Of a stretch of DNA of 64,000 nucleotides, positions 3,597-33,593 are shown in pieces (the first letter of the stretch is position 1; each line of letters opens with the position of its first letter). The notes beneath the pieces were generated by a model, which was not told where the DNA came from, did not search any database, and was given only the letters and a program-made list of their open reading frames with translations. The DNA comes from Flavobacterium sp. KJJ (lineage in GTDB: Bacteria > Bacteroidota > Bacteroidia > Flavobacteriales > Flavobacteriaceae). The position numbers and the translations under genes were made by a program. Location of the stretch: contig NZ_JARP01000003.1 of the NCBI RefSeq assembly GCF_000708595.2, forward strand, positions 310,001 to 374,000. Reading direction: 5' to 3'.

Positions 3597-3851
3597 TTAT
3601 TCCTGTTCTAAATTATCAACAGCAGAAATCTGATCCAATATATTGGTTTGGTTTGGCGAAATGTAATTTTTTATTTCAGGAGTAGTTTCCTTCTTAAAAA
3701 GAATGTCTAATGCATTATAAAGTCGTAATAAAACCTCTCTATCCTCTTTTTCAATCTCTAAAGCCGTGTTGAAATTAAAAACATAATTATTCGAATTGCG
3801 TACTTCTACTTTTATCGTTTTAGATGTGATTTTGAATTTGACGATATCCAT
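3597..3851 (-). CDS. Small hypothetical protein
   Basis: An 84-residue protein of unrecognised family. It starts with a beta-rich segment (VKFKITSKTIKVEVRN), followed by a predicted helix (REVLLRLYNALDILFKK) and an Asn/Gln-rich tail. It has no signal peptide, TM segment or cysteine. It is convergent with the GNAT gene, and a run of T and A residues separates it from the DUF763 gene upstream. Length, start context and codon use look like a real gene, but nothing in the neighbourhood suggests a job. Confidence 0.55.
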   Translation of the reverse strand: MDIVKFKITSKTIKVEVRNSNNYVFNFNTALEIEKEDREVLLRLYNALDILFKKETTPEIKNYISPNQTNILDQISAVDNLEQE

Positions 3852-3993
3852 ATTATTATAAATTTATTAGTTTGCAAAAATGCTATTTTAATGGCAGTTA
3901 CTGCGGCTATTTTTTTGTTTTTTTTATTTGAATAAAAATTTGTCTTTGAATAATCAAAGCATTCAGAATATTTGCGGGAATCTGTAATCAAAC

Positions 3994-5214
3994 TTAAAAT
4001 AATTCCAGCTGATTATTGGGATTAATGGGTTTGTTTTTTTGAGGCTTTGCATCGCCAAAAATAGTTCGTCCGCCGTATTGATGTGATTCGTCTCTTTCTC
4101 TTTGAATCAGTGCATCAAAGTTAGCATTAGGCGTAAAGCTTTCTTCAGCTTTTCTTGAGATTTCAGATAACTTTTGAATCGCTTGAATTTTGTCACTGTT
4201 GCCTATTTTGGCACGATTAATTGCTCTTTGTAAAGTATCAATGGTCTCATCATAAATTTTTACCGGAACAGGAAATGGATGCCCGTCTTTTCCACCGTGA
4301 GCAAAAGAAAAACGCGCTGGATCTTCAAATCGGGTAGGAGTGCCGTAAATTATTTCACTTACCAATGCTAATGATTGCAGTGCTCTTGGCCCCATTCCTT
4401 TTAAAAGCAAAAGTTCTTCAAAATCTTCTGGTTTATTTTCGTGAGTTGCCCAAAGCATTGCGCCAAGTCTTTTCATATTAACATCTTCCATCCTGACATC
4501 GTGATGTGCGGGCATAGAAAGGTATTGCATCTCTTTCATAATTTTTGTGGGAGACTCTTTTGATAATTCTAAAATTCCTTCTCTCGATTTTGTTGCTGCC
4601 TGAGCGGTAAGATTTAAAATAGAACCTTGATTTTCACCATAAATAAAAGTATGCGGCTCATTTATAAAAGATTTTAAATCTTGTGAATGCCAATGATATC
4701 GTCGCGCAGTTTTAGAATTGGGATTCATGCCTTGCTGAATAACAGCCCATTGTCCTTTATTGTCAACGATAAAATTATGCTGGTACAATTGGAATCCGTC
4801 TTGAATTGCTGTATTGTCAACTTTAGCAGTAAGTTTGCTGCAATTCGCAAGATTGTTGCCGTCAAGACCTGTTTTTTCGCCTACAGCTAAAAGTTCTTGT
4901 GGAGTTAACATTGAATGTTTGCCTTTTCCTCCGCAGATATATATGCCAAGTTCTTTTGAATGCGGGTTTACTGATTTTTTTAATGCTCCAAGTACAGAAG
5001 TTGTAATTCCAGATGAATGCCAGTCCATTCCCATCACAGCGCCAAAACTCTGAAACCAGAAAGGATTACTAAGCTTGCTTATCACTTCAGAGGTTGAAAA
5101 CTCCAAAGCAATCGTTTCTACAATAGCGAAACCAAGCTTAGACATTCGTTCGGCAAGCCATAATGGAACATGTCCATAATGTAAAGGAAGGTCTGCTGTG
5201 CCGGAACGTTTCAT
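3994..5214 (-). CDS. DUF763 domain-containing protein
   Basis: A 406-residue protein beginning MKRSGTADLPLHYGHVPLWL, the hallmark start of DUF763 (PF05559). Family-like blocks continue through FQSFGAVMGMDWHSSGITTS, GGKGKHSM, YHWHSQDLKSF and MPAHHDVRMEDVNMKRLG. A stretch around LLLKGMGPRALQSLALVSEI resembles a helix-hairpin-helix, as in DNA-repair proteins (inference). The family is widespread in bacteria and archaea and its biochemical function is unknown. The gene is monocistronic, with its 3' end in an AT-rich spacer and its 5' end facing the tRNA-fragment region. Confidence 0.9.
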   Translation of the reverse strand: MKRSGTADLPLHYGHVPLWLAERMSKLGFAIVETIALEFSTSEVISKLSNPFWFQSFGAVMGMDWHSSGITTSVLGALKKSVNPHSKELGIYICGGKGKHSMLTPQELLAVGEKTGLDGNNLANCSKLTAKVDNTAIQDGFQLYQHNFIVDNKGQWAVIQQGMNPNSKTARRYHWHSQDLKSFINEPHTFIYGENQGSILNLTAQAATKSREGILELSKESPTKIMKEMQYLSMPAHHDVRMEDVNMKRLGAMLWATHENKPEDFEELLLLKGMGPRALQSLALVSEIIYGTPTRFEDPARFSFAHGGKDGHPFPVPVKIYDETIDTLQRAINRAKIGNSDKIQAIQKLSEISRKAEESFTPNANFDALIQRERDESHQYGGRTIFGDAKPQKNKPINPNNQLELF

Positions 5215-5639
5215 TTGTTAGATTTGTATTTACACAAAAATACGTAAAATACTTTTAAATGCTTTTTAGGATAATATTTTTACTTTTCAAGTTTTTATAC
5301 GGATGAAAAATAACTTTAAGCCTAATTGATTCAAATTTCCTGCCGGATTAGAAGTGAATTTTAAAAACAAACCCTTAAAAATTTCTGTTTAAGGGTTTGT
5401 TTTTTGTAGCGAGGACGTGAGTTGAACCATTAACCCGCTCCGCTAAGACTTCCTTTTGAAAAGCTGCGCAAATATCTTTGACTTTGCGAAATTTTTAGTT
5501 CTGTTTTTTATATAGAATCAACAAACTGTATTTTATAATTTATATTAAATTTTGGTTTAAACTCAGAGGCATTTCCGTGGCATTGCTGTTGAAGACTTTG
5601 CTTCTGATAGATTAAAAGTGGAATAGATTTTACAATGGA
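5215..5639. repeat. Intergenic repeat region with a degenerate tRNA-Met 3' fragment
   Basis: No gene is visible. Segment 5275-5406 (starting ttttcaagttttta and ending in a terminator hairpin) is a diverged copy of 6950-7083. Directly after it, 5407-5428 matches the 3' end of tRNA-Met (tagcgaggacgtgagttgaa) with one mismatch. Similarity to the tRNA then stops. Next, 5436-5500 (around ttccttttgaaaagctg) is a diverged copy of 6825-6890. The pattern suggests an old attachment site left by an insertion at tRNA-Met. Confidence 0.7.
5366..5406 (-). terminator. Hairpin copy of the tRNA-Met terminator
   Basis: An inverted repeat built on aaacccttaaa and tttaagggttt is flanked by A- and T-runs on both sides. 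The same hairpin lies beside the other two tRNA 3'-end copies (7041-7075 and 16066-16100), always on the 3' side of the tRNA. It probably descends from the native tRNA-Met terminator. Confidence 0.6.
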
Positions 5640-6245
5640 TTAATCAATTACAATACTGTCAATTGCATTTTCCATCGCAGTTTCTTTTATTCCCGGAACT
5701 TTTAGTCCTTCAGCTCGAATTGCTGTTAAATCGCTCATGCCCAAAAAGCCAAGAAAGGCTTGTAAATACGGAACTACAAAATCATTGGCTTTGCCGGGAC
5801 CTTCTGAATAGACACCACCAGAGGTCATAGCAACATATACTTTTTTATCTGTAACCATTCCAATAGGCCGCCCGTCTTCACCATATCCAAAAGTTACTCC
5901 GGGTCTGGTAATATGATCAATCCAGGCTTTTAAAGTTGAAGGTATTGTAAAATTGTAAAGAGGGGCTCCAATAACAATGATGTCGGCTTTAAATAATTGT
6001 TTTAATAAATCATCAGAAAAGCGGATAGATTCTTTTTGTTCTTCGTTTAATAAATTAGGAGGAGAAAATAAGCTGCGAAGAGAATCAGGATTAAGATGTG
6101 GAATTTCATTTTCTGCCAGATTAAGTTCTTCAACCGTGCTGCCGGGATACTTTTTCTGAATTTTTTCTACAATAAGCCGTCCAAGCTTAATACTATAAGA
6201 TTGATTTCCTTGAATGCTTGACATTAAGTGAAGAATGTGTTTCAT
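5640..6245 (-). CDS. azoR: FMN-dependent NADH-azoreductase (AzoR/AcpD family)
   Basis: A 201-residue flavodoxin-like protein with the AzoR layout. It has the FMN phosphate loop near SSIQGNQSYSIKLG, the flavin-contacting GAPLYNFTIPSTLKAWIDH block, FGYGEDGRPIGM and the MTSGGVYSEGP loop. AzoR reduces quinones and azo compounds with NAD(P)H and protects against electrophile stress; it is a cytoplasmic homodimer. It is divergently placed against an HxlR regulator across 187 bp that contain a tandem 18-bp repeat, so electrophile-responsive control by that regulator is likely. The pair is bracketed by tRNA-Met 3' fragments, which hints at acquisition as a cassette. Confidence 0.9.
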   Translation of the reverse strand: MKHILHLMSSIQGNQSYSIKLGRLIVEKIQKKYPGSTVEELNLAENEIPHLNPDSLRSLFSPPNLLNEEQKESIRFSDDLLKQLFKADIIVIGAPLYNFTIPSTLKAWIDHITRPGVTFGYGEDGRPIGMVTDKKVYVAMTSGGVYSEGPGKANDFVVPYLQAFLGFLGMSDLTAIRAEGLKVPGIKETAMENAIDSIVID

Positions 6246-6379
6246 AATTTAGAGATATAAAATTTAAAAATTAAAACCCGAATGTGTCAAAATCGTATGC
6301 TCATTTTGACTTAAAAGCATGACTTTGTTTTAAGGTTTACTTATGGCAAAGCTAAGAGTATCAGCTATGCAAAAGATAG

Positions 6380-6415
6380 CAGTTACCTAAAGGAAATCAG
6401 TTACTTTTAGGAAAG
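6380..6415. promoter_or_regulatory. Candidate HxlR operator: two abutting 18-bp direct repeats
   Basis: CAGTTACCTAAAGGAAAT (6380-6397) is immediately followed by CAGTTACTTTTAGGAAAG (6398-6415), 14 of 18 positions alike. A -7-like TATCTTTA lies at 6419-6426, just before the hxlR start, so the repeats cover the -35 to -18 region and would suit autorepression. The azoR start lies on the other side of the same spacer. Confidence 0.6.
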
Positions 6416-6432
6416 TTTGTATCTTTACAGCT

Positions 6433-6804
6433 ATGAAAACAATTGAAAAAGAAGTACTTCCAACACAAGATGAATGTGCAGGATCGCTTAAAAACATACT
6501 GGATGCTCTGTATGTTTTAAATGGCAAATGGAAAATTGCTTTGATTCTAAGTCTTGTGCAGTCTCCTAAACGGTTTAATGAAATTCGTAAAGAAATTGCA
6601 GGAATCTCTCCCAAAATACTGGCAAAAGAACTAAAAGATTTGGAACTAAATGATTTTATTAAACGTACTGTTTATCCAACAACCCCAGTAAGTATTATTT
6701 ATGAAGCAACAGATTACAGCCGAACTTTAAAAAGTGTAATTCGTGAACTCAGTGCGTGGGGTGAGCAGCACAGAGAAAAGGTGAAAGAAAGTATGAGAAA
6801 ATAA
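6433..6804 (+). CDS. HxlR-family winged-helix regulator with N-terminal cysteine
   Basis: A 123-residue HxlR protein. It reads LNGKWKIALILSLVQSPKRF for the first helices, then NEIRKEIAGISPKILAKELK for the recognition helix, with a C-terminal dimerisation helix. Cys15 (DECAG) lies ahead of the winged helix, where the redox-sensing Cys of YodB, CatR and HypR is found. In Bacillus subtilis YodB controls an azoreductase, and here the divergent neighbour is an azoreductase. Sensing of quinones or diamide through Cys15 is therefore a reasonable inference. The -7-like box is so close to the ATG that the mRNA may be nearly leaderless. Confidence 0.88.
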   Translation: MKTIEKEVLPTQDECAGSLKNILDALYVLNGKWKIALILSLVQSPKRFNEIRKEIAGISPKILAKELKDLELNDFIKRTVYPTTPVSIIYEATDYSRTLKSVIRELSAWGEQHREKVKESMRK

Positions 6805-7083
6805 TAAATTGATTCTATTTCCACGCTCCGTGAAGAGTTCCTTTTGAAAAGCTGTGCAAATGTCTCTGACTTTGCGCAATTTTTTTGCTTGTTAGAAATT
6901 GTAAACGTTATAAAAGTCTTGGCGATGAAGACTTTGTGGAATGGGGGGATCGTTTTGCTTTTCAAGTTTTTATGCAGATGAAAAACAATTTTAAGCTTAA
7001 CTAATTCAAATTTCCTGCTAGATAAGAAGTAAATTCCAATAAAAAACCCTTAAACAATTACTGTTTAAGGGTTTTGCCTTTTG
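6805..7083. repeat. Intergenic repeat region, second copy beside tRNA fragment
   Basis: Segments 6825-6890 (around ttccttttgaaaagctg) and 6950-7083 (ttttcaagttttta to the terminator) repeat 5436-5500 and 5275-5406 with many substitutions. Their relative order differs: here the first precedes the second, while at 5.3 kb it follows. No open frame of useful length is seen. The region lies 3' of hxlR and ends at the left attachment repeat of the island. Confidence 0.65.
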
Positions 7084-7129
7084 TAGCGAGGACGGGAGTT
7101 GAACCCGTGACCTCAGGGTTATGAATCCT
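7026..7129. repeat. Left direct repeat (att-like): terminator plus 46-nt tRNA-Met 3' fragment
   Basis: About 104 bp nearly identical to 16050-16153. Bases 7084-7129 are identical to the 3' 46 nt of tRNA-Met (discriminator to the 5' side of the anticodon loop); identity stops exactly there. The rest is the AAACCCTTAA hairpin. It marks the left edge of the 9-kb island. Confidence 0.85.
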
Positions 7130-7253
7130 ATAAATAAACACTTTACTATTTAGTAAAGGCTTAATTACAATGATTTTAAAAGCCAAAATCGTTTTGAAAC
7201 GTTTTTAGCTGTTTTCGTCACTCCCTTATTTATGTTGCAATTTAAGTCAAAGC

Positions 7254-7607
7254 TTAAATTTTATTAACTATTTTTACTTTATCACCAACTTTTATTTTGC
7301 TTAGTAAATCTTTTTCAACATCCAATTCTTTATAAATTTGCAATCCTATAAGAAAGTTTTTCTCTTTTCGTAGTTCCGAAACTAGTGTTGTCATACTGTC
7401 TTGAATGTGCATTATCTTAAAGAAACCTTTTGGGATTTCCAAATTACCTAAACTTTTATTAGTTGATGGGTCAATAATTTCATCTCCCTCTTCATAAACT
7501 AAAAATCTCATAGAACTATCAATAGAATCTTTTAGACCCTTATTTATAACAATTTGATAATCATCGATTTTAGAGGCAATCACTATATTTGATATTTGTT
7601 TATCCAT
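7254..7607 (-). CDS. Hypothetical beta-rich protein, third gene of the HEPN operon
   Basis: A 117-residue protein with no signal or TM segment. The segment VINKGLKDSIDSSMRFLVYE, then IDPSTNKSLGNLEIPKGFFK, resembles small beta-barrel domains with a KG..GI..GDRF.VY pattern, such as those near the FlgT C-terminus. A second KVGDKVKIV strand closes the fold. That resemblance is from memory and weak. Its ATG (7605-7607) overlaps the stop codon region of the two-TM gene by 8 bp, so translation is probably coupled. Function unknown; it may be the soluble partner of the membrane protein. Confidence 0.65.
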   Translation of the reverse strand: MDKQISNIVIASKIDDYQIVINKGLKDSIDSSMRFLVYEEGDEIIDPSTNKSLGNLEIPKGFFKIMHIQDSMTTLVSELRKEKNFLIGLQIYKELDVEKDLLSKIKVGDKVKIVNKI

Positions 7608-8118
7608 TATAACTTAAGTAATTTTTAATTAATATTGATAATAAAGCATTATTGTCATTATTAAGAATTCTTTCATAATCATCTTGATAGGAATTGACAA
7701 AACCATCATCGAAATTGATGATTTTTACTTGTACAAATTTTTCTTGAATGTTCTGTACATATCCATTGGCTAATAATAATTGGAAATTGTTCTTTATATA
7801 GTATATAGAAACGCTTTGCGAATACTCAAGATTGCCATTGTTCTCTACTAATAATAACAAATCAGCACTTGAAAATTGGATAACTTTATTGCTTTCATTA
7901 GCTAATGTTTTATTGGACATGTAGATATCGTATGTCAACTTTAGCGATATAATTAAAATAAATGAATAGGTTATCCATAAAACTGCAAACCATTTAATGC
8001 TGAGCTCAGTATTCCAATCAATGAAGATTGACATTATACCCAAAATGCCTCCTACAATTCCAATTAGAATTGAAATACCATTTAAGGATAAAATCTCTTC
8101 TAGTTTCTGTTTTATCAT
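7600..8118 (-). CDS. Hypothetical two-TM membrane protein, second gene of the HEPN operon
   Basis: A 172-residue protein with two hydrophobic helices, about residues 14-33 (ISILIGIVGGILGIMSIFI) and 43-62 (WFAVLWITYSFILIISL). They are separated by a short loop (DWNTELSIK), so it forms a hairpin in the inner membrane. The C-terminal ~110 residues are soluble and probably cytoplasmic, with alternating strands (KFVQVKIINFDDGFVNSYQD). No known family recognised. It lies 61 nt downstream of the AbiJ/HEPN gene and overlaps the next gene. Membrane hairpin partners are common in abortive defence systems, so a membrane-associated role in defence is plausible but unproven. Confidence 0.65.
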   Translation of the reverse strand: MIKQKLEEILSLNGISILIGIVGGILGIMSIFIDWNTELSIKWFAVLWITYSFILIISLKLTYDIYMSNKTLANESNKVIQFSSADLLLLVENNGNLEYSQSVSIYYIKNNFQLLLANGYVQNIQEKFVQVKIINFDDGFVNSYQDDYERILNNDNNALLSILIKNYLSYNG

Positions 8119-8179
8119 TTTCTAAATTATGACTTTTATAGTTAATAATGATTCGTTGTATTTGTAAGATTATTTTGTT

Positions 8180-9040
8180 CTATTTAAAAGTAATTCCTGC
8201 TTTGCTTGCTTTAACAATTAGATAATTTATAAACGAGCTACTAGAAACAAGCATATATTTTGCATCTTCAAAATCACAATTATGGTCATCCATTAGGGCA
8301 TGGCGGATTCCATCACTATCACTTGTATAGCCATATAATTGTTTAAAACCTCTTTCCAATGAAGCATGAAGTTTAATTTTCCCTTTAATCTTATCAAGAG
8401 CTCCACCTAAACTGTCTTTAGGATTTTCAGATATTGCCTTTGCCACTGATTCAATTGCTGAGATAGACTCTTTTATTGAATTTCTATAATCTGGAGATTT
8501 TCTGTCGGAAAGTTTTTCTAAAGCAGATTTTAAGTGAATATTTACACCCTTTAAAGCTGTAAAATGACCAGACTGATTTATTGCATTTTCAATTTCTTCG
8601 ATTTCATTCGGATTGCTAATGGCTGAAATTGTGTCACCAATAAATCTATAAGCTGAAAATTCTCTTTCTAATATTTCATTGCAAAATATTTTAAAGCCTT
8701 CTTTTTCAATATAAAAGGAGTCTGATTCAATATTAGCAAAAAATTCCAATAAGTCATAGGATTCAAACCACTGACCATTAAAAAAGCTATCTCTAATAAA
8801 CTTTTCTGATTGATAGCGATATTCTGGTATTATATCAATCGGTAATTTATAATGATTGTGCCAAAGTAGTATACAAAACGGATTAAATTCTTCATGTGTG
8901 TAAGCATCTCCGTCTTGCAGTGTGTCAATAACAAGAAGTTTTATTCCGTTCCAAAGTCCATTCTTTAAATCATTATCTAAAGACTCGATTTGCATTTGTT
9001 TGAATGTCGCTACTTTACCTATTCTTTGAGAAAATTTCAT
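8180..9040 (-). CDS. AbiJ-NTD4 / HEPN domain abortive-infection-like protein
   Basis: A 286-residue protein. The N-terminus (FSQRIGKV, then IQIESLDNDLKNGLWN) fits the AbiJ N-terminal domain 4 pattern. The C-terminal ~110 residues fit the HEPN domain seen at the end of AbiJ-like proteins: KESISAIESVAKAI near 190-203, GGALDKIKGKIKLHASLERG, KQLYGYTSDSDGIRHALM with R246-H247, then EDAKYMLVSSSSFINYLI. HEPN domains are commonly RNases in toxin and phage-abortive systems, and the conserved Arg-His is the likely active or structural site. It heads a probable three-gene operon with a two-TM protein and a small beta-rich protein. Family call is from memory; activity is inferred. Confidence 0.8.
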   Translation of the reverse strand: MKFSQRIGKVATFKQMQIESLDNDLKNGLWNGIKLLVIDTLQDGDAYTHEEFNPFCILLWHNHYKLPIDIIPEYRYQSEKFIRDSFFNGQWFESYDLLEFFANIESDSFYIEKEGFKIFCNEILEREFSAYRFIGDTISAISNPNEIEEIENAINQSGHFTALKGVNIHLKSALEKLSDRKSPDYRNSIKESISAIESVAKAISENPKDSLGGALDKIKGKIKLHASLERGFKQLYGYTSDSDGIRHALMDDHNCDFEDAKYMLVSSSSFINYLIVKASKAGITFK

Positions 9041-9238
9041 TTCTATAAATTAGTTTATATTTTGCATTTGATTAAGTCAGCAGTTATCTTTTATGTAACA
9101 GAATTTGAAAATCGCCTAACGCAAATATAAAGATATTCATGTTAATAATTTTATGGAAATTATGCTGTTCTAAGTTTCACATCGTTTTAAGCAAATGCAT
9201 GCGAAGTTGCTATAAACTTGCAGTCGCATGTTGACTTT

Positions 9239-10936
9239 TTATTCTGTTAAAATATCTTTAAAGATTTCAATTAATGTTTCAGATGGGAATTCATACCCTG
9301 TTAATCGGTAACTTATTGGACTCAGTTTTTCTCTTATGTTTCTATTAACTGAATCTTCAATTTCTAATTGTGTTTTTCCATTTGGCTTTTTTAAATTATT
9401 CATTTTCGACAGATGCTTGTCAATAATAGATTTAAAATTACATTCATTATTTTCAAGATATGGTAACCAATAAATTAATGTATCAATATCTATTATTATG
9501 AGATTTTTAATAAAATTAGGGTTGTATTTATCCCTTAGTTTTTCTTTTATTTTAGACAAATACCAATTATTCATAATATAATTAAGTCCTAATATTTCAA
9601 ATATTCTATCATTTACCAATAAGATTGGATATATTGTTAAATTTTTCTTTGAGTTTACATAATCATCGTATTTGAATTCATTTTCAACTATGTGATTTAT
9701 TGTAGTTACTAATTGACCAATCCCAATTGGTTTTTTCTTTTGTTCCAGGAATTTTTCTTTAAATGTTTTTAAGATAGTTTCTATATTTCCAGAACTTTTT
9801 ACTTCTTTAGCAATCAGAACGTCTTTATTTTCAAATAAAAATACCTGATTATTATGTCTTACATAATAGTCGGGTTCATTATCAGTTGTCTCTTTAACTT
9901 CTTTTTTTGTTAAATATTTTTTTGAAAAAACTCTATCAAGTATATGTTTCATTAAATATTCTTCGGAAAATTTGGTGTTATAAAAAGAAAAAAAAGTTCT
10001 ATCATTGGATGGTAAATCGTGTTTTTTATTAAAGCTATCTTTTAAAACAAATCTTACACTTTTATAAAATTTATCTACAACAAAAAAATAATCTATAATT
10101 GAATAAGTTTCATCATCGATTTTGTAGAGAGGATGATTTCGTAAGTTTAAGAAATCTTTGTCCTCTGTTATTTCATTTGAGACTAATGAATTTAAGAATA
10201 ATTTTGATTTCTCATCTTCAACCTTAAACTTAAAACCGTTTTTTTCTGTCTTAATTCTAAGTAATTGCAAAAGTAACATTTTAGTTTCGTTGATTAATTC
10301 TTCAGAATTTTCTAAATTAAAGTACTTAAACAAACTTATTTCTAGATATTCATAATCTTTATCTGATTTCAAAAAATCGATTAGTAATTCAAAACGTTTT
10401 AGTGTTGATACAATCAATTTAACTAATTCAACATCGTTTCCTTCAAATACTCCTAAATCCGCATTTGAAAAGGACATTGTAATTAACATTTCTGAAAATT
10501 TTTCAATATTATCATCTTTAGACATTGAAAAATTTTCTCTTTTATTTACTTGTTCATTTATTATTAAGAAAGATTTTAACAAGTTGATTTCATCTGAATC
10601 AATATCAACTATTTTATTTTTTACATTTTCAATTAATAAGTCTCGATTTGCTAATATTTTTTCAGCTAGTTTTAGACTCCCTTCTCTTGAAATTACACAA
10701 GGTTTAATTTTTATTTTATTATTCTCACAATATGAGTGAACTCTGTTAATAATATCATTCCTAATATCTATGTTTGAATTTATATTATCATAGTTGGGTT
10801 GAGGAAAACTATTGGAAAATCCAATAATATTTAAGAGCGACTCTGGAGAAATTAATTTTAAATATTCAATTATTTCTTTCTGCTTTTCGTCAGGGAAGAC
10901 CATTCCAAACTCTAATCTAATGATGGTTCTAATCAT
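9239..10936 (-). CDS. Large hypothetical protein with PD-(D/E)XK nuclease-like motif
   Basis: A 565-residue AT-rich protein with no signal peptide. The N-terminal ~320 residues are helical and unrecognised. In the C-terminal half, EPDYYVRHNNQVFLFENKDV gives D356 and E369-N370-K371, the D...ExK spacing of PD-(D/E)XK nucleases on two adjacent strands. It is followed by a helix and a GIGQL segment (Q408) at the position where many such nucleases carry a conserved Gln. This suggests a nuclease effector, perhaps guarding against phage DNA, in a defence island. Only the motif is seen; no named system is recognised. A recombinase relic lies about 105 bp upstream. Confidence 0.65.
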   Translation of the reverse strand: MIRTIIRLEFGMVFPDEKQKEIIEYLKLISPESLLNIIGFSNSFPQPNYDNINSNIDIRNDIINRVHSYCENNKIKIKPCVISREGSLKLAEKILANRDLLIENVKNKIVDIDSDEINLLKSFLIINEQVNKRENFSMSKDDNIEKFSEMLITMSFSNADLGVFEGNDVELVKLIVSTLKRFELLIDFLKSDKDYEYLEISLFKYFNLENSEELINETKMLLLQLLRIKTEKNGFKFKVEDEKSKLFLNSLVSNEITEDKDFLNLRNHPLYKIDDETYSIIDYFFVVDKFYKSVRFVLKDSFNKKHDLPSNDRTFFSFYNTKFSEEYLMKHILDRVFSKKYLTKKEVKETTDNEPDYYVRHNNQVFLFENKDVLIAKEVKSSGNIETILKTFKEKFLEQKKKPIGIGQLVTTINHIVENEFKYDDYVNSKKNLTIYPILLVNDRIFEILGLNYIMNNWYLSKIKEKLRDKYNPNFIKNLIIIDIDTLIYWLPYLENNECNFKSIIDKHLSKMNNLKKPNGKTQLEIEDSVNRNIREKLSPISYRLTGYEFPSETLIEIFKDILTE

Positions 10937-11042
10937 ATTTATTCAATTTATAAAAGTGGTTTAGCCTTTTTAGACAAATTCGAAAAATAGGGTTTGTGTC
11001 AAAATATATAATAATTCGTTACAATTCATCTGTTTTTACTTG

Positions 11043-11156
11043 TTATAATGCTTTATCAGTTAATATTTTTCTAATCTTTACGATTGTATTATTTGATAAG
11101 TTGGTAATTGATGCAAGTTTTCTAATTGAATAGTTTTTGTCTTTTATTAATTTCAC
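11043..11156 (-). pseudogene. Serine recombinase C-terminal HTH remnant
   Basis: This stretch encodes a 37-residue frame (GTG at 11156, TAA at 11043-11045) reading KDKNYSIRKLASITNLSNNT, then IVKIRKIL. That is the Hin/resolvase-type C-terminal helix-turn-helix. It aligns closely at DNA level with the 3' end of the recombinase relic at 15607-15700. The catalytic domain is absent. An AGGAG precedes the GTG, so a tiny peptide could be made, but the simplest reading is a 3' gene fragment marking an old cassette boundary. Confidence 0.75.
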
Positions 11157-11175
11157 TCCTTAATTAATAATTAAT

Positions 11176-11823
11176 TTATTCAAGGTCAAAATTCTTGCTA
11201 ACATCTTTATTGTCATTTTCTGCTATTTTAATTTTCTTAATATAAATTTTCCCATCATTTTCTACTACACTCAAATTATTAGTCCTGTTTTTTGATTTTA
11301 TAAAAACATAATAGATTCCTGGCTTAGTATTTATTACGTAATTTCCGTTGCCATCAACAGTTTTTTTAGGTAAATTATCATCAAGTTTTAATAACTGCAT
11401 GTATAAATCAGTAGATATTTTTGCAAACTTTTCAGGTGTTTCTGATTTATATAGTATTATTTGCTCCATATGACTGCTCATATCTCTTTGTGCATCTTCC
11501 ATTCCTTTTTTGAATGTTTCATTGTCTTGTGCATATTTTTTCTTTCCTTCTGTTTTTTTGAAAGCTACTAAATATTTATCATATCTCTCTTGAGCTTGAA
11601 AATACATATTTTGATAAAATTTACCATAATTGTAATTTTCATAGAGTTTGTAATCAAAGTTTTTAACTGTTAGGCTGTCAATCAATATTACTGATGCGCC
11701 AATATCCGCTTTGTTTCCTTGATATTGGTTGAAATAATAAGTTATAACACCACGAACAGTTGTTTGTGAATAACCTAGGATTGAAATGATAAATAAAAGA
11801 AGAGAAAATATAGTTTTTTTCAT
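11176..11823 (-). CDS. Secreted protein of unknown function with carboxypeptidase-regulatory-like C-terminus
   Basis: A 215-residue protein with a signal peptide (MKKTIFSLLLFIISILGYSQ). The middle is charged and helical (QERYDKYLVAFKKTEGKKK). The C-terminal part, VDGNGNYVINTKPGIYYVFI, resembles the transthyretin-like strands of carboxypeptidase-regulatory domains often found in Bacteroidota periplasmic proteins. It is probably periplasmic or on the outer membrane. It is the only exported protein in the island, which sets it apart from the cytoplasmic defence genes. It follows the 41-codon gene and the AlbA_2 gene on the same strand, but with a gap of 161 nt, so a separate promoter is likely. 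Confidence 0.6.
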   Translation of the reverse strand: MKKTIFSLLLFIISILGYSQTTVRGVITYYFNQYQGNKADIGASVILIDSLTVKNFDYKLYENYNYGKFYQNMYFQAQERYDKYLVAFKKTEGKKKYAQDNETFKKGMEDAQRDMSSHMEQIILYKSETPEKFAKISTDLYMQLLKLDDNLPKKTVDGNGNYVINTKPGIYYVFIKSKNRTNNLSVVENDGKIYIKKIKIAENDNKDVSKNFDLE

Positions 11824-12167
11824 TTGATAAATATTTTGATTTTATTGAATTGTTATTCTTATTAAGAATTGTTGATTAACTCGAATTGGTAGAGATTTTT
11901 GCAGTTCTTAAGGCATTAGTTGTTTATGATAACAAGATGTTTTTATTTACCGACTGAATTAGATTCATTTACAGCAATATTTTTTTACCTATTATTATGA
12001 TAAACCTCTGCTAATTTATAAAGTACATTTCTTATCATGAGTATTTCTTCATTAGTATAAAAAATTCCATTTTTGTTTAATTTCTTTTTGCATGTTGTAA
12101 GTGATAGCATTTTCAAAAATATGTTTGATTAATAAAACTTCAATTTCTCGAAGTGGATTTTATTGAA
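11824..12167. other. AT-rich spacer holding one tiny gene
   Basis: The only coding signal is the 41-residue frame at 11985-12110. The rest is AT-rich with no clear hairpin terminator or repeat. Confidence 0.5.
11985..12110 (-). CDS. 41-residue protein of a small family seen with Bacteroidota mobile elements
   Basis: The frame from ATG (12108-12110) to TAA (11985-11987) reads MLSLTTCKKKLNKNG, then FYTNEEILMIRNVLYKLAEV. From memory this matches a widespread tiny protein (pattern LS...CK..LNK.G..YT.EEI..IR..LY.LAE) found near recombinases and mobile DNA in this phylum. It is mostly helical with one Cys and no TM segment. No biochemical role is known to me; a small DNA-element accessory factor is a guess. 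It is too short for most gene callers. Confidence 0.6.
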   Translation of the reverse strand: MLSLTTCKKKLNKNGIFYTNEEILMIRNVLYKLAEVYHNNR

Positions 12168-13322
12168 TTATTTTATTTTCTTTTTTGATTTAGTTTGTAG
12201 CAATTTTCCAAAAATATTATTGTGATTATTTATTTCGTTGAGAGCTTCAACTATTGGTTGAACAGCATTTTCAGAAAAAACAATTTTATGTGTTTTGTCA
12301 AGTATTTCAACCCAAATAAATTGATTAAATGCTTTGTTTATTTTTGTTTCGTCTGGATTTTCGATTGGTAATTTTTCATCATCAATCCATTTTAGATGCT
12401 TAAAGACAAATTTTAATTGATTTGATGTGAAATTGTAATTACAATGATGTTTTATTTTTTCTAAAAGACTCGAAAAATAAATAAAATCCCTAGGTGTTTT
12501 GCTTTTCAATTCTCCAACTATTTTATAAATTGGTTTGCCTTCATCATTTGATATTTTTCCGATATCTCCAGCCGAAATCGCATTTAATATAATATTGAAA
12601 ACTCCGTTTTCAGTTTGGTCAATATCTATTTCACTACTTGAAAGTAAATTATCTTTTGAGTTGTAGCCATATACAGTATTGTTTTTTGGATTTAGTATTA
12701 GAACTTCTCTGGGATTTATATCAAAAATTTCGGGTAGTAATTTTGACCATATTTCCATAAACTCTTTGTTTTTTTCGTTTGCTTTTACTTGAATGAAACG
12801 ATTGAAATCTTGAGTAGTTGAATTTGCAGTTTCGTTTTTGCCTGAAACACGATAAATAATTTCACCTTTCTTTATGTTATAATCAGGGAAATCATTTATA
12901 GGAATTATTATCTGGTTTTGTTTTTCAATTAATATGTAAAAAAACTTTCTAGTGCCAGATTGAAAGTGTTGTAAATCTAAATCAACCCCAACTTTTGCTA
13001 TTTTGTCGAACTTTTGAGAAATTTTATTTAAATCAATTTTATTTAATAGTTCAAAATTTTTGTTATCTAAACCAGTATCATCAAGCTCACCACTTGATTT
13101 TTCTTCTTTTATTCCAATTAAGAGAATTCCCCCATTCGAATTTGAAAAAGATAAAATATCTTTAGTGAAATTTCGCATAAAAATCTCAACAGGGTCAGTT
13201 TGACCATAAAAATTTAGTTCAAGTTTGTAATCATATAAATTATTTTCTTTTGGAAACTTTCCATGGTTTTTTAGATTATCTATAGTTATTGAAACCTGCT
13301 CTTTTAATAATTTTAAATTCAT
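12168..13322 (-). CDS. AlbA_2/Schlafen-type ATP-binding domain protein
   Basis: A 384-residue protein. The N-terminal AlbA_2 (Schlafen AAA_4-like) domain is recognised from YDYKLELNFYG at 30-40, then FTKDILSFSNSNGGILLIGI at about 52-71. The NSNGG turn is the diagnostic motif. Further family-like strands include IIPINDFPDYNIKKGEIIYR and RVSGKNETAN. The C-terminal half is helical and unrecognised. AlbA_2 proteins occur as regulators, putative RNases or parts of phage defence; which applies here cannot be told. The gene is placed in the right half of the island, upstream of the 41-codon gene. Confidence 0.8.
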   Translation of the reverse strand: MNLKLLKEQVSITIDNLKNHGKFPKENNLYDYKLELNFYGQTDPVEIFMRNFTKDILSFSNSNGGILLIGIKEEKSSGELDDTGLDNKNFELLNKIDLNKISQKFDKIAKVGVDLDLQHFQSGTRKFFYILIEKQNQIIIPINDFPDYNIKKGEIIYRVSGKNETANSTTQDFNRFIQVKANEKNKEFMEIWSKLLPEIFDINPREVLILNPKNNTVYGYNSKDNLLSSSEIDIDQTENGVFNIILNAISAGDIGKISNDEGKPIYKIVGELKSKTPRDFIYFSSLLEKIKHHCNYNFTSNQLKFVFKHLKWIDDEKLPIENPDETKINKAFNQFIWVEILDKTHKIVFSENAVQPIVEALNEINNHNNIFGKLLQTKSKKKIK

Positions 13323-13411
13323 GGCTTTTAGTAATTAAAATTAGGTTTTTGAAAATATAGAATGCAATGTTTTTTCCAATTTTCGACTTTATATGACATC
13401 ATAAATGAATT

Positions 13412-13609
13412 TTAATCTGTGGAAATTCCTTGATTTTCAAAAATTGAACATAATGATTCAATTTCTTCTAAAGTACCGTCTAGAGTTATTAATCCTCCGT
13501 AAGTTTTTCTATTCATTCTAATAAGTAATTTGCCAGTATCTTCTATTTTTTGAAGAATAATAACAGCGGAATTAAATTCATCATTATTTAATGCAATTTC
13601 TTTAACCAT
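13412..13609 (-). CDS. Small hypothetical protein
   Basis: A 65-residue protein (MVKEIALNNDEFNSAVIILQ start) with alternating strands and a GGLITLDGTLEEIESLCSIF helix. No family recognised. It lies 89 nt upstream of the AlbA_2 gene on the same strand and could share its transcript. A purine-rich stretch precedes the ATG. It might be an accessory or antitoxin-sized partner of the AlbA_2 protein, but only size and placement suggest this. Confidence 0.5.
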   Translation of the reverse strand: MVKEIALNNDEFNSAVIILQKIEDTGKLLIRMNRKTYGGLITLDGTLEEIESLCSIFENQGISTD

Positions 13610-13951
13610 TTTAAATTTTATAATTCTGAAAAATATTATTTCTTTTCCAGGTAAATTTGATTAACTATTCTAGCTTTGTTAATAGTAGAATTGAAAAATG
13701 TTTATATTGTTTAAGCTATTTAGTTGGTTATCTTATGAGATGAATGAAAACAAATATATGTATAATCAGATTTGATTTTTAATTTTAGACAAAAACACGT
13801 ATTTATACGTGCTAGTTCTCATTTATTTAATTTAAAAATCAAATATCATTTTTTGTTTTATAAATTGATTACGGAAAACCATATTTTCTTGACATTAAGT
13901 AAAGGCTCTTAATGTTTTTTACTTTAAATATTACTTATAATTATTTCTACG
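13610..13951. promoter_or_regulatory. Divergent intergenic region upstream of the excisionase-like gene
   Basis: No gene is seen. It holds AGTAAAGGCTCTTAAT at 13898-13913, almost the same as AGTAAAGGCTTAAT at 7152-7165 near the left end of the island. It also holds an inverted repeat AAGTAAA (13897-13903) and TTTACTT (13918-13924). The HTH protein encoded just downstream is a candidate binder. Confidence 0.45.
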
Positions 13952-14230
13952 ATGGACAATACAACTATGTTGCATAATATATCACCAGAAAATTTAGAGC
14001 TAATAATTAAGGAAGCTGTTAAAAGTCAATTGGAAGAATTTTTTAAATATATCTCAATTGATAATTCTAATGAATTGCTAACTAGGGCTCAAGCATGTAG
14101 TTTGTTAAAAATTAATATGACCACATTGTGGAATTGGACAAAAAAGCAAAAAATTATTTCTTATGGAATCGGAAATAGAGTTTATTATAAAAAATCTGAA
14201 CTATTAGCGAGCTTAGTTAGATTAAATTGA
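13952..14230 (+). CDS. Excisionase-like helix-turn-helix protein (HTH_17/MerR-type)
   Basis: A 92-residue protein. The C-terminal half is a MerR/excisionase-type winged helix: ELLTRAQACSLLKINMTTLW, then NWTKKQKIISYGIGNRVYYK for the wing, then KKSELLASLV. The N-terminal ~40 residues form an acidic helix usual for Bacteroidota mobile-element HTH_17 proteins. It is the only plus-strand gene of the island. It may act as a recombination directionality factor or repressor; candidate sites are the repeated AGTAAAGGCT motifs at 7152 and 13898. Confidence 0.8.
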   Translation: MDNTTMLHNISPENLELIIKEAVKSQLEEFFKYISIDNSNELLTRAQACSLLKINMTTLWNWTKKQKIISYGIGNRVYYKKSELLASLVRLN

Positions 14231-14269
14231 AAAACATTATATTCTAGTACTAATTTTAGTGAAGCGAAT

Positions 14270-15544
14270 TTATGTCAAGGGCTCACAGTATTCTTTATTT
14301 ACTACCTTATCTCTCAAGACTGCTTTATTACTAAAGTTCCTTGTGATATTTCTTACTATTTCACTGTAGTTATCATCATTTTCTCTTTTATGATAAAATG
14401 GTTTTATAGAGACACAATTTTTATGTTCAAAAAGTGTACTTAAGAGTGTTCGGTCTGAATTTCCGCAAGAATGCCCAAAAATGAATATTTGGTAGTCGCC
14501 ACTATTTAAAAACTCTAATAATTTTTTGTAGTTATCGGTTTCGAAATATTTAGTTGATTTAATATTTTCAAGATAGCTATTTTCATTTAGATTTTCAATT
14601 GATTTGTAGTCTTCATCTATTTCATCTCCAAAGCCAAATATAACATTGTTATTATCTTTCTCGTTGGTAGTTCCATGAATATGAATTACACTTTTTTCTA
14701 GATTTTTATTAACTTCTCTAGGAAGGTCAAACCAAGTCATATCATAATATAATCTCTCAGTAAATGTATAATTAAAATTTAAAAATAGTATTTCTTCTGG
14801 TTGTAAATCAAAATAATCAGATGAAGATTGATATAACAGTCTTGCTCTTATATCCTTTAAAGGTGCATTATTTCCTATTGCTGATATCAGTCTATTTTGT
14901 TTATCATTCGCAATTTTTTGTGGGTGAACCATTGCTGAATCATGGAATTTAAGATGTTCTCGTATGTTTTGAAATTCCAATTCAGCTTTTTTATTTATAG
15001 CAGACTCCGTGAAATCCTTGAATTTAAAATCGGCGTAAATTTTATAAGCGATAGAATTTCTTAGATGTTTATTAGCAACATTTTTATCAAAGTTTTCTTT
15101 GAAATAGTTTTCGGTTTCTCGTAGATAATTTTCGAGTAGTTTTTGTATTCCAGTGAAATCAGAATTTAGTTGAGAAATTGTATATGTGCAGTTTTCATTT
15201 TTGAATGATTCTTTTAAAAGCAAATAATATTCATTTTCAATATCAACCCAATTTTGAATTTGTCTTTTGTTGTTAATATATTCAAGAAATTTATTTTTAA
15301 AAATTAATTCACTTCCATTCCTTTCTAAAGTTTCATGTAATTCCTCAAATTTGATAATTGTAGAAAAATATACGGGTCGTGGTAATCGAGTAATTATTAT
15401 TTCTGTATTTTCAAATAATCTCTCTTTAGTTGACTTAATATCAGATATTATTTTATACCAATAATAACTAATAAAATCATTATAGCTTGTTCTCATTCCA
15501 TGAGCTAAATCAAATCCATTTCCAATAAGTATAATTCTATTCAT
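14270..15544 (-). CDS. AbiH-family abortive infection protein
   Basis: A 424-residue protein that opens with MNRIILIGNGFDLAHGMRTS, the signature start of the AbiH family (PF14253), with GNGFD at 8-12 suggesting a nucleotide-binding loop. Other family-like blocks are ILFLNFNYTFTERLY, VIHIHGTTNEKDNNNVIFGF and YQIFIFGHSCGNSDRTLLST. AbiH was first described as a lactococcal phage abortive infection factor; its mechanism is not clear. It is full length and lies directly downstream of the recombinase relic. It is convergent with the HTH gene. Confidence 0.88.
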   Translation of the reverse strand: MNRIILIGNGFDLAHGMRTSYNDFISYYWYKIISDIKSTKERLFENTEIIITRLPRPVYFSTIIKFEELHETLERNGSELIFKNKFLEYINNKRQIQNWVDIENEYYLLLKESFKNENCTYTISQLNSDFTGIQKLLENYLRETENYFKENFDKNVANKHLRNSIAYKIYADFKFKDFTESAINKKAELEFQNIREHLKFHDSAMVHPQKIANDKQNRLISAIGNNAPLKDIRARLLYQSSSDYFDLQPEEILFLNFNYTFTERLYYDMTWFDLPREVNKNLEKSVIHIHGTTNEKDNNNVIFGFGDEIDEDYKSIENLNENSYLENIKSTKYFETDNYKKLLEFLNSGDYQIFIFGHSCGNSDRTLLSTLFEHKNCVSIKPFYHKRENDDNYSEIVRNITRNFSNKAVLRDKVVNKEYCEPLT

Positions 15545-15606
15545 GATTTTATTTTAATCAAATATATAGAATATTTTTTCTTACAATATTGAAAGGTAGA
15601 ATTAAT

Positions 15607-16082
15607 TTATGATAACATTTTTCTAATTTTAACTATTGTATTATTTAATAAGTTGGTAATTGACGCAAGTTTTCTAATTGAATAATTTTATCCTTAATCA
15701 ATTCTAAATGTGATTGATTGTATTTTGACAAGAATTGTTGAGGTGTTTCAATAGTGTTTAATAGTCTGCCTTTATAAGTTCCTTTTGCTTTAGCAATTAA
15801 GATACCTTCTTTTTGTCTTTCTAATAAAGACGCTCTTTCCATTTCAGCAACATTACTTAAAACATCGGTAATCATTTTGAAGATAGAATTAGGTTTGTTG
15901 TCAATCATAGAATAAAAGCCAATGTTTTCTACATAAACATTTATATTAAGAGTGCTTAGTAAGTTTAAGATACTTTGAATATCAAAAGCATTTCTTCCAA
16001 GTCTATCTATAAAATAATATTGAATAAAATATTTAATAGAAGCCTTTTTGAAGATAAATTCCAATAAAAAACCCTTAAACAT
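15607..16082 (-). pseudogene. Serine recombinase (Hin/resolvase type), 5'-truncated and frameshifted
   Basis: The open frame 15645-16082 covers FIDRLGRNAFDIQSILNLL and EMERASLLERQKEGILIAKA, the middle and E-helix of a small serine recombinase. The first ~60-65 residues, including the catalytic Ser (expected YxRVS), are missing. The upstream sequence is instead the right att repeat from 16050. Near the 3' end one base is lost relative to the relic at 11043-11156 (GATAAAATTATTC versus GACAAAAACTATTC). The frame therefore ends early at 15645; the corrected frame would run to TAA at 15607-15609. The gene is dead by two lesions. Confidence 0.85.
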
Positions 16083-16153
16083 TTCTGTTTAAGGGTTTTG
16101 CCTTTTGTAGCGAGGACGGGAGTTGAACCCGTGACCTCAGGGTTATGAATCCT
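16050..16153. repeat. Right direct repeat (att-like)
   Basis: The partner of 7026-7129. It spans the AAACCCTTAA hairpin and the 3' 46 nt of the intact tRNA-Met. The terminator loops differ (catttctg here, caattactg on the left), so the two copies are not freshly duplicated. Confidence 0.85.
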
Positions 16154-16181
16154 GCGCTCTAACCAACTGAGCTACCTCGCC
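16108..16181 (-). tRNA. tRNA-Met (anticodon CAT)
   Basis: A 74-nt cloverleaf on the minus strand. The acceptor is GGCGAGG/CCTCGCT, the D arm is GCTC..GAGC, the anticodon loop is TTCATAA, the variable loop is AGGTC and the T arm is ACGGG-TTCAACT-CCCGT. CCA is not encoded. The anticodon stem CAGGA/CCCTG leaves an A31-C39 mismatch next to the loop. The layout matches elongator tRNA-Met; tRNA-Ile2 (lysidine-modified CAT) is less likely but not excluded. Its 3' half is the integration target of the island. Confidence 0.95.
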
Positions 16182-32170: not shown

Positions 32171-32803
32171 ATGAAGAAAAATATTGTAGTTGCCTTAGCA
32201 CTAATAACATTTGGTTTTGCAAATGCACAAAATGTGAAGTTTGGAGTAAAAGGAGGATTTAACTTATCTAGTTTAAAAGGAAATATTGAAAATGAAACGC
32301 CAAAGTTTGGTTTTCAATTAGGAGGTCTTGCGGAATTTAAGCTTACAGATAAATTTTATATCCAGCCAGAACTTTTGTTTTCTACTCAGGGTGGAAAATA
32401 TCAACAGTCTGGAGTTGATTATTTGTATAAACAGGAATTAAATTCGAGTTATCTGAATATTCCAATTATGGCTAAGTATTATATTATAGATAAATTGAGT
32501 CTTGAGGCAGGGCCGCAAGTTGGTTTTTTACTATCGGCTAAAGGCAAATATGAAGTAAGAAACGGAACAGAATTTCTTTCTGGAAGCGGGAATGCTAAAG
32601 ATACCTATCAAAAACAAAATATTGGCTTAAATATTGGAGCTGGTTATGATTTAACAAAAAATATAACAGCCGGAATGAGATATCATTTTGGTATGTCCAA
32701 TGAAATAAGATACTATCCAAGTATAACTAATGTTTTTGAAGGCGAAAGACAAATTAGAATGCGCAATGATGTTCTTTCGATCTCTGTTGGATATAAATTT
32801 TAA
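32171..32803 (+). CDS. Small outer-membrane beta-barrel (porin-like family) protein
   Basis: A 210-residue protein with signal peptide (MKKNIVVALALITFGFANAQ). Barrel-type strands are NVKFGVKGGFNLSSLKGNIE, EFKLTDKFYIQPELLFSTQG and DKLSLEAGPQVGFLLSAKGK; the last strand is VLSISVGYKF, with C-terminal Phe for BAM insertion. It is a paralogue of 30438 and 33018. TAAGTTTG at 32139-32146 is the likely -7 box. A hairpin at 32827-32857 closes the unit. Function unknown. Confidence 0.9.
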   Translation: MKKNIVVALALITFGFANAQNVKFGVKGGFNLSSLKGNIENETPKFGFQLGGLAEFKLTDKFYIQPELLFSTQGGKYQQSGVDYLYKQELNSSYLNIPIMAKYYIIDKLSLEAGPQVGFLLSAKGKYEVRNGTEFLSGSGNAKDTYQKQNIGLNIGAGYDLTKNITAGMRYHFGMSNEIRYYPSITNVFEGERQIRMRNDVLSISVGYKF

Positions 32804-32826
32804 AAATAAACTTTAATGTTTTTATA

Positions 32827-32857
32827 AAGCCTTCTTCATTTAGAGAAGGCTTTTCTG
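32827..32857 (+). terminator. Terminator after the 32.2-kb barrel gene
   Basis: AAGCCTTCTTC and GAGAAGGCTT form a stem around an ATTTA loop, with a T-rich tail. Confidence 0.75.
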
Positions 32858-33017
32858 TTTTTATAATATTATCGGTAATTAATATTTTCTCTTTAAATTG
32901 TTTGTTTTGGTAAGATTTTGGCTCTAATTACTATTTTATTTATTAAAATGCAAATAATTTTTTAATAAGTATATATTTATATTTACTCAATTAATTTTTA
33001 ACCAAAACAAATTAAAA

Positions 33018-33593
33018 ATGAAAAGAATTATTTTAACTGTACTTGCAATTATGGCATTTGGATTTGCGAATGCACAGCAAACAAGATTTGGAGTAAAAGG
33101 AGGTCTTAACGTAACTACTTTTGCTGGAGGAAATTATTGGGATGCTAAATCTTTAGTGGGTTTTCAACTTGGAGGTTTTGCTGAAATTAAAATTATTGAA
33201 AGATTATCTATTCAGCCAGAGGTTTTGTTTTCGACTCAAGGTGCTAAATTGGAAGATTCTTTTGGTGACTTTGATACTAAATTAAATTATATAAATGTTC
33301 CTGTTTTAGCTAAGTTTTATATCACAAAACAATTTACAGTTGAGGCTGGTCCGCAATTAGGATTTTTAGTGTCAGCTAAACAAGAAGGAAATGATGTTAA
33401 GGACAGCTTTAAATCTGTAGATACAGGATTTAATTTTGGAGCGGGTTATAATTTTACAGACAATGTTTCTGTTGATCTTCGTTATACTGTTGGTTTGTCA
33501 AATATCGCAGATTACGATGTTAATGATACAGAAGAATATTTTGATAGTCCGAAAAATAGTGTTTTAGCTTTGACTTTAGCTTATAAATTCTAA
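33018..33593 (+). CDS. Small outer-membrane beta-barrel (porin-like family) protein
   Basis: A 191-residue protein with signal peptide (MKRIILTVLAIMAFGFANAQ). It has TRFGVKGGLNVTTFAGGNYW, EIKIIERLSIQPEVLFSTQG and FTVEAGPQLGFLVSAKQEGN strands, and ends LALTLAYKF. Its sequence is very close in layout to 32171, which suggests tandem duplication. The region before it is AT-rich with no clear -33/-7 pair. A short hairpin (33616-33641) lies between it and xerD. Function unknown, but probably an abundant envelope protein like its neighbours. Confidence 0.9.
   Translation: MKRIILTVLAIMAFGFANAQQTRFGVKGGLNVTTFAGGNYWDAKSLVGFQLGGFAEIKIIERLSIQPEVLFSTQGAKLEDSFGDFDTKLNYINVPVLAKFYITKQFTVEAGPQLGFLVSAKQEGNDVKDSFKSVDTGFNFGAGYNFTDNVSVDLRYTVGLSNIADYDVNDTEEYFDSPKNSVLALTLAYKF

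Follow-up and report, generated by a model that had tools for sequence, protein, structure and literature searches.

A segment of two genes, azoR and hxlR, was found in the analysed window (the whole 64,000-nt stretch, located on contig C3 of the 4.6-Mb Flavobacterium genome) and was very probably inserted next to a tRNA-Met gene before the 9-kb island that lies between them. An older insertion, with at least two rounds at tRNA-Met, is well supported, and the number of insertion layers on the 3' side of the tRNA is at least two and probably three. The original prediction of such an older round was borne out by 17 relatives with an empty site and by the lower identity of the outer repeats compared with the inner ones (86.8% vs. 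99.0%). The reading that we prefer for the arrival of azoR-hxlR, namely recombination at the tRNA end, is held with appreciably less confidence than the insertion itself. The features of the site are listed in Table 1.

Table 1. Organization of the tRNA-Met site in the order of position in the window
Feature	Position	Strand	Basis or remark
Left chromosomal flank gene, 84 aa, conserved	3600..3851	-	Found in 33/121 genus genomes
Empty-site intergenic remnant	3852..3939		BLAST homology to relatives to 3892-3928, rest by eye
DUF763 gene, outermost layer	3994..5214	-	Pfam PF05559
Arm A and terminator hairpin	5275..5405		Repeat alignment to arm B/hairpin
tRNA-Met 3' fragment A, 23 nt, 1 mismatch	5406..5428	-	22/23 bases
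X repeat copy A, internally deleted	5432..5607		5434-5496 and 5497-5577 match near-full C4 copies; ends by eye
azoR	5640..6245	-	Pfam PF02525 Flavodoxin_2, E 9.1e-46
hxlR, HxlR-type regulator	6433..6804	+	Pfam PF01638, E 1.1e-24
X repeat copy B, internally deleted	6820..6946		Orientation as copy A; ends by eye
Arm B and terminator hairpin	6950..7082		Repeat alignment
tRNA-Met 3' fragment B, 47 nt, perfect	7083..7129	-	Distal repeat of the 9-kb island
Younger 9-kb island	7130..16049		AbiJ_NTD4/PDC-S32, SLFN_AlbA_2 and AbiH genes, truncated resolvase
Hairpin copy adjoining the intact tRNA	16050..16106		Repeat comparison
Intact tRNA-Met (CAT)	16107..16181	-	Only intact copy at the site
Right chromosomal flank gene, 130 aa	16333..16725	+	Found in 116/121 genus genomes

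Fragment B is identical to the intact tRNA-Met at 47 of 47 bases and fragment A at 22 of 23, the latter match being reached by none of 1000 dinucleotide shuffles. Both fragments are in the places where they had been predicted, except that each had been drawn one base short of the limits in Table 1. As in accretion at a tRNA gene, the copies are in direct orientation, with the intact tRNA at one end and the 3' fragments beyond it. The terminator hairpin is common to all three tRNA 3' copies, and a further arm of ~85 bp was found only in the outer two. The hairpin and arm shared by the fragments, also predicted, were confirmed by alignment of the outer units (5278-5428 vs. 6953-7105), which gave 131 identities, 20 mismatches and 2 gap positions, or 86.8% identity over 151 aligned bases (84.5% for arms A and B alone); in a BLAST search of the genome against itself, the E-value of the arm/hairpin/fragment repeat was 5.5e-43. 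The inner pair (7026-7129 vs. 16050-16153) showed 102 identities, 1 mismatch and 2 gap positions, or 99.0%. Given this difference, the azoR-hxlR layer looks older than the island, and the site has the layers of different age that accretion produces. A third decayed tRNA fragment was not detectable between the 84-aa gene and DUF763, where 220 of 1000 shuffles scored equally.

The site was compared in samples of 121 and 398 Flavobacterium genomes taken from a larger group, in which absences are incomplete. The left flank gene was found in 33 of the 121 genomes, and in 17 of these the flank genes are 339-783 bp apart, which corresponds to an empty site. Since such a gap is too small for the 1.2-kb pair, azoR-hxlR is absent from all 17, and genomes lacking the pair at this position thus exist, as had been anticipated. 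Relative to them, everything from ~3940 to 16106, DUF763 included, is inserted; the intergenic remnant in the window stops about where the terminator hairpin would be expected to begin. In 11 of the 33 genomes, including this one, 2.8-47 kb separate the flank genes and the site is occupied, and the other five, with flank genes far apart or on different contigs, were left unplaced and scored as neither. The pattern that would speak against an insertion, with both fragments and azoR-hxlR present in relatives free of the island, was unseen in the 27 other genomes whose flank genes are close together on one contig.

This genome is the only one among the 11 occupied to have two extra tRNA 3' fragments. 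One second 3' copy was found in six of the other ten (G125, G113, G004, G085, G099 and G017); it differs at 6 of 24 bases in G004 and G085 and is located beyond the left flank gene in G017. No extra copy was detected at up to 6 mismatches in G101, G088, G082 and G065, and G101 has one lone extra hairpin. A gene located 65-109 bp from the tRNA in G125, G004 and G113, chosen by eye among the tRNA-near ORFs of 12 genomes, matches PHROG integrase profiles; Pfam Phage_integrase was confirmed for the genes of G125 and G004 and is unconfirmed for that of G113. The islands of these three genomes are like the window in using the same tRNA-Met and in having a tRNA 3' fragment with the hairpin at the far end, but differ in the integrase-profile gene by the tRNA and in having no hairpin match beside the intact tRNA. 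The repeat in G125 and G113 comprises ~43-51 nt of the tRNA end only; G099 and G017 have the hairpin at both ends, as in the window. In G125, the stretch from the left flank gene to the distal fragment holds a relative of AbiH (L040:10489-13381), 75.7% identical to the gene of the window island, and this site with its integrase-bearing island is possibly a second case of layering.

No match to the arm was found in the compared islands of the relatives, including those of G099 and G017. The expectation that the arms would be single copy in relatives failed: with two candidates scored per genome, the arm was hardly found at all, and the search of 397 other genus genomes gave just three weak matches of 31-45 nt, two of which fall within one gene (by eye). 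The arm had no match in phage records, nor did an exact-pattern search of viral contigs find it. The sole plasmid match was 47 nt spanning the tRNA 3' end, and the phage and viral searches were otherwise uninformative. Intergenic DNA of the chromosome itself was considered as the origin of the arms and rejected: the window retains such DNA beside the 84-aa gene, and the arms align poorly to relatives beyond ~20 bases from the hairpin (by eye).

The azoR and hxlR genes are divergently oriented, and they keep this adjacent, divergent arrangement in 78 of the 80 loci compared from named genomes (the best 80 of 99 relatives, Bacteroidota by their titles). The matching records are from F. sp. Leaf82, F. 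aquidurense and F. pectinovorum, among others. The name azoR, with a putative azoreductase-like function, comes from the original prediction, and the Pfam assignment points to a flavodoxin-like fold. At E <= 1e-80, azoR was found in 21 of the 398 genus genomes, this one included, with up to 8 candidates scored per genome. Homology to the relatives spans 5635-6806, that is, the two genes alone. In flanks of ~10 kb or up to the contig end, no match to tRNA-Met or the hairpin was found near azoR in 18 of the 20 other genus carriers, whose flanks were compared, or around azoR-hxlR in the 80 loci of named genomes. By these comparisons, azoR-hxlR is a travelling pair. In a quick tree of 38 rows (38 of 82 remaining, picked by genus together with nine outgroup loci), the window pair and the F. 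cerinum pair cluster together (SH-aLRT 94). The tree omitted 15 loci as copies of loci with G handles, L170 and L171 among them, which had no fetched counterpart of this kind, being left out needlessly. A clade of the window pair with those of G136, G097 and G267 was rejected by the AU test (p-AU 0.0154); this clade had been fixed from synteny before the tree, yet after the identity matrix (18 chosen loci of 98).

No recombinase or integrase was found in 5275-7129 by Pfam analysis of azoR and hxlR; the ORFs of at least 80 aa there are these two genes and one overlapping 83-aa frame. Without a recombinase, the azoR-hxlR segment resembles a remnant rather than a functional element. The claim that only azoR and hxlR lie between the fragments was right about both genes but overlooked two decayed copies of a ~325-nt repeat, here called X, one between fragment A and azoR and the other between hxlR and arm B. 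The X repeat has inverted ends and four near-full copies on contig C4. The stretch 6820-6920 is 92-95% identical to three of them, and 6800-6919 is 88% identical to the fourth. When a full copy was folded as single-stranded DNA, the energy was -69.4 kcal/mol against a shuffle mean of -30.5 (n = 100, z -10.9). The idea that X beside the fragments is a decayed tRNA promoter was rejected: the copies on contig C4 reveal a dispersed repeat. Those four copies (L025:4004-11045) share 93-100% identity with one of their number and are interspersed with ORFs, and the array adjoins a long ORF that seems RHS-like by eye. The window copies may have inserted later by chance or have played a part in the arrival of the pair.

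The stretch 3983-5275, with the DUF763 gene, shows 86.6% identity with a segment of G143 located across the 84-aa flank gene; DUF763 lies there (L073:9481-13308) 2.3 kb from this gene, on the opposite side. Other relatives carry DUF763 elsewhere. Since its neighbours vary among G143, G136/G097 and G006, DUF763 may move, and its position outside fragment A possibly represents a still older, third layer. In G136, G097 and G267, azoR-hxlR is located 2 kb from DUF763, in the order and orientation of the window and at a different locus, and the window DUF763 is 94.6-95.8% identical to theirs. The two genes lying between DUF763 and azoR-hxlR in these three relatives have homologues on contig C1 here, which adjoin a gene also found near the DUF763/azoR-hxlR block in G097. 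A single moved DUF763-azoR-hxlR block, an idea that came from this synteny, is unsupported by the azoR-hxlR tree; DUF763 alone could still have moved as part of such a block.

Given the synteny in three relatives, an independent arrival of azoR-hxlR next to DUF763 would make their proximity here a coincidence. It is conceivable, although unlikely, that azoR-hxlR never integrated separately and that ordinary recombination or slippage during replication doubled the arm-hairpin-fragment unit near a resident DUF763/azoR-hxlR block, with deletions later. Such a history would agree with the gene order shared by the window and the three relatives, with the homologues of the two intervening genes on contig C1 and with the presence of non-tRNA DNA in the repeats, but it requires multiple steps, and the histories of the genes differ, azoR-hxlR standing apart from the pairs of G136, G097 and G267 in the AU test while the DUF763 genes are closely similar. 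We find it improbable that azoR-hxlR moved as a cassette bounded by the two X copies, through X recombination or transposition, between copies of the arm-hairpin-fragment unit that already existed, the fragments being older scars. Although X lies at both edges of the pair in the same orientation, ~3-6 bases from fragment A and arm B (ends by eye), alternates with ORFs on contig C4, and has terminal inverted repeats and folding far beyond that of shuffles, no transposase is assigned to it, contigs C1 and C8 carry partial matches as well, and X leaves the arm-hairpin duplication unexplained. It is very doubtful that foldback X repeats generally bound movable Flavobacterium gene cassettes (the C4 gene groups and azoR-hxlR), dropped into scars of the tRNA-terminator hotspot without a recombinase borne by the element.

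Recombination at the tRNA end, the preferred reading, ranks below the insertion itself because of the scarce arm matches, the absent recombinase and the synteny of DUF763 and azoR-hxlR in three relatives; the X repeats at both edges of the pair, the non-tRNA arm within the repeat and the short tRNA-only repeats of G125 and G113 also count against it. In its favour are the empty sites, the second tRNA 3' copies in six of the other occupied genomes, the integrase-profile genes in three of these, the order of divergence of the repeats, and the occurrence of azoR-hxlR as a travelling pair that groups with that of F. cerinum. The proposal of an older insertion at the same tRNA holds as regards insertion and age; site-specific recombination at the tRNA would be the putative carrier of azoR-hxlR, and no integrase remains in the segment. 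In the preferred reading, the tRNA-Met gene with its terminator is an insertion hotspot in Flavobacterium, with layers stacked on the tRNA 3' side. The newest layer is the 9-kb island of defence genes, from fragment B to the intact tRNA, and azoR-hxlR with the X repeats is what is left, in worn form, of an insertion made earlier, with its outer boundary at fragment A. The integrase that catalysed this arrival at the tRNA end would since have been lost or have acted in trans, and the element carrying the pair may have had the arm as its tRNA-proximal end.

The island genes with AbiJ_NTD4/PDC-S32, SLFN_AlbA_2 and AbiH domains (8180-15544) are likely anti-phage genes by their profile matches. Of the 145 profile positions, the resolvase (15645-16082) is missing the first 69, and its match begins ~34 bases inside the direct-repeat edge at 16050. 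No intact integrase was found near the att site, where the truncated resolvase is the only candidate, so the site does not have the makeup of a functional tRNA island. A 77-nt piece in the middle of the island (11061-11137) is 91% identical to the 3' end of the resolvase gene and the sequence downstream; this suggests that the 9-kb island is itself composite.

In Dehalococcoides, several islands are stacked 3' of one small stable-RNA gene, ssrA, and bounded by 20-bp direct repeats of the gene 3' end; an integration module that includes a serine recombinase is present in sixteen of the islands, and some have no integration genes (PMC3146451). The window is similar in the stacking on the 3' side, the direct repeats of the gene end and the layers without integration genes, but differs in its repeats, which comprise 23-47 nt of tRNA with the hairpin (and arm) rather than 20 bp, and in having no intact recombinase instead of a serine recombinase (PMC3146451). 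The build-up of islands in tandem at tRNA hotspots is already known, and the present case is at most a new instance; a literature search on integration sites at tRNA-Met in Flavobacterium found no paper. In Klebsiella pneumoniae, tRNA-Asn genes with their islands reportedly act as insertion hotspots; this role is alike here, while the host and the tRNA differ. The window records a layered insertion history at a Flavobacterium tRNA-Met hotspot that is empty in about half (17/33) of the sampled genomes in which the left flank gene was found, and it suggests that a gene pair of ordinary metabolism can outlast lost mobility genes as a fossil of an earlier insertion. Elsewhere in the window (32171-33121), two adjacent, apparently paralogous genes share a 104-nt repeat with 72% identity.
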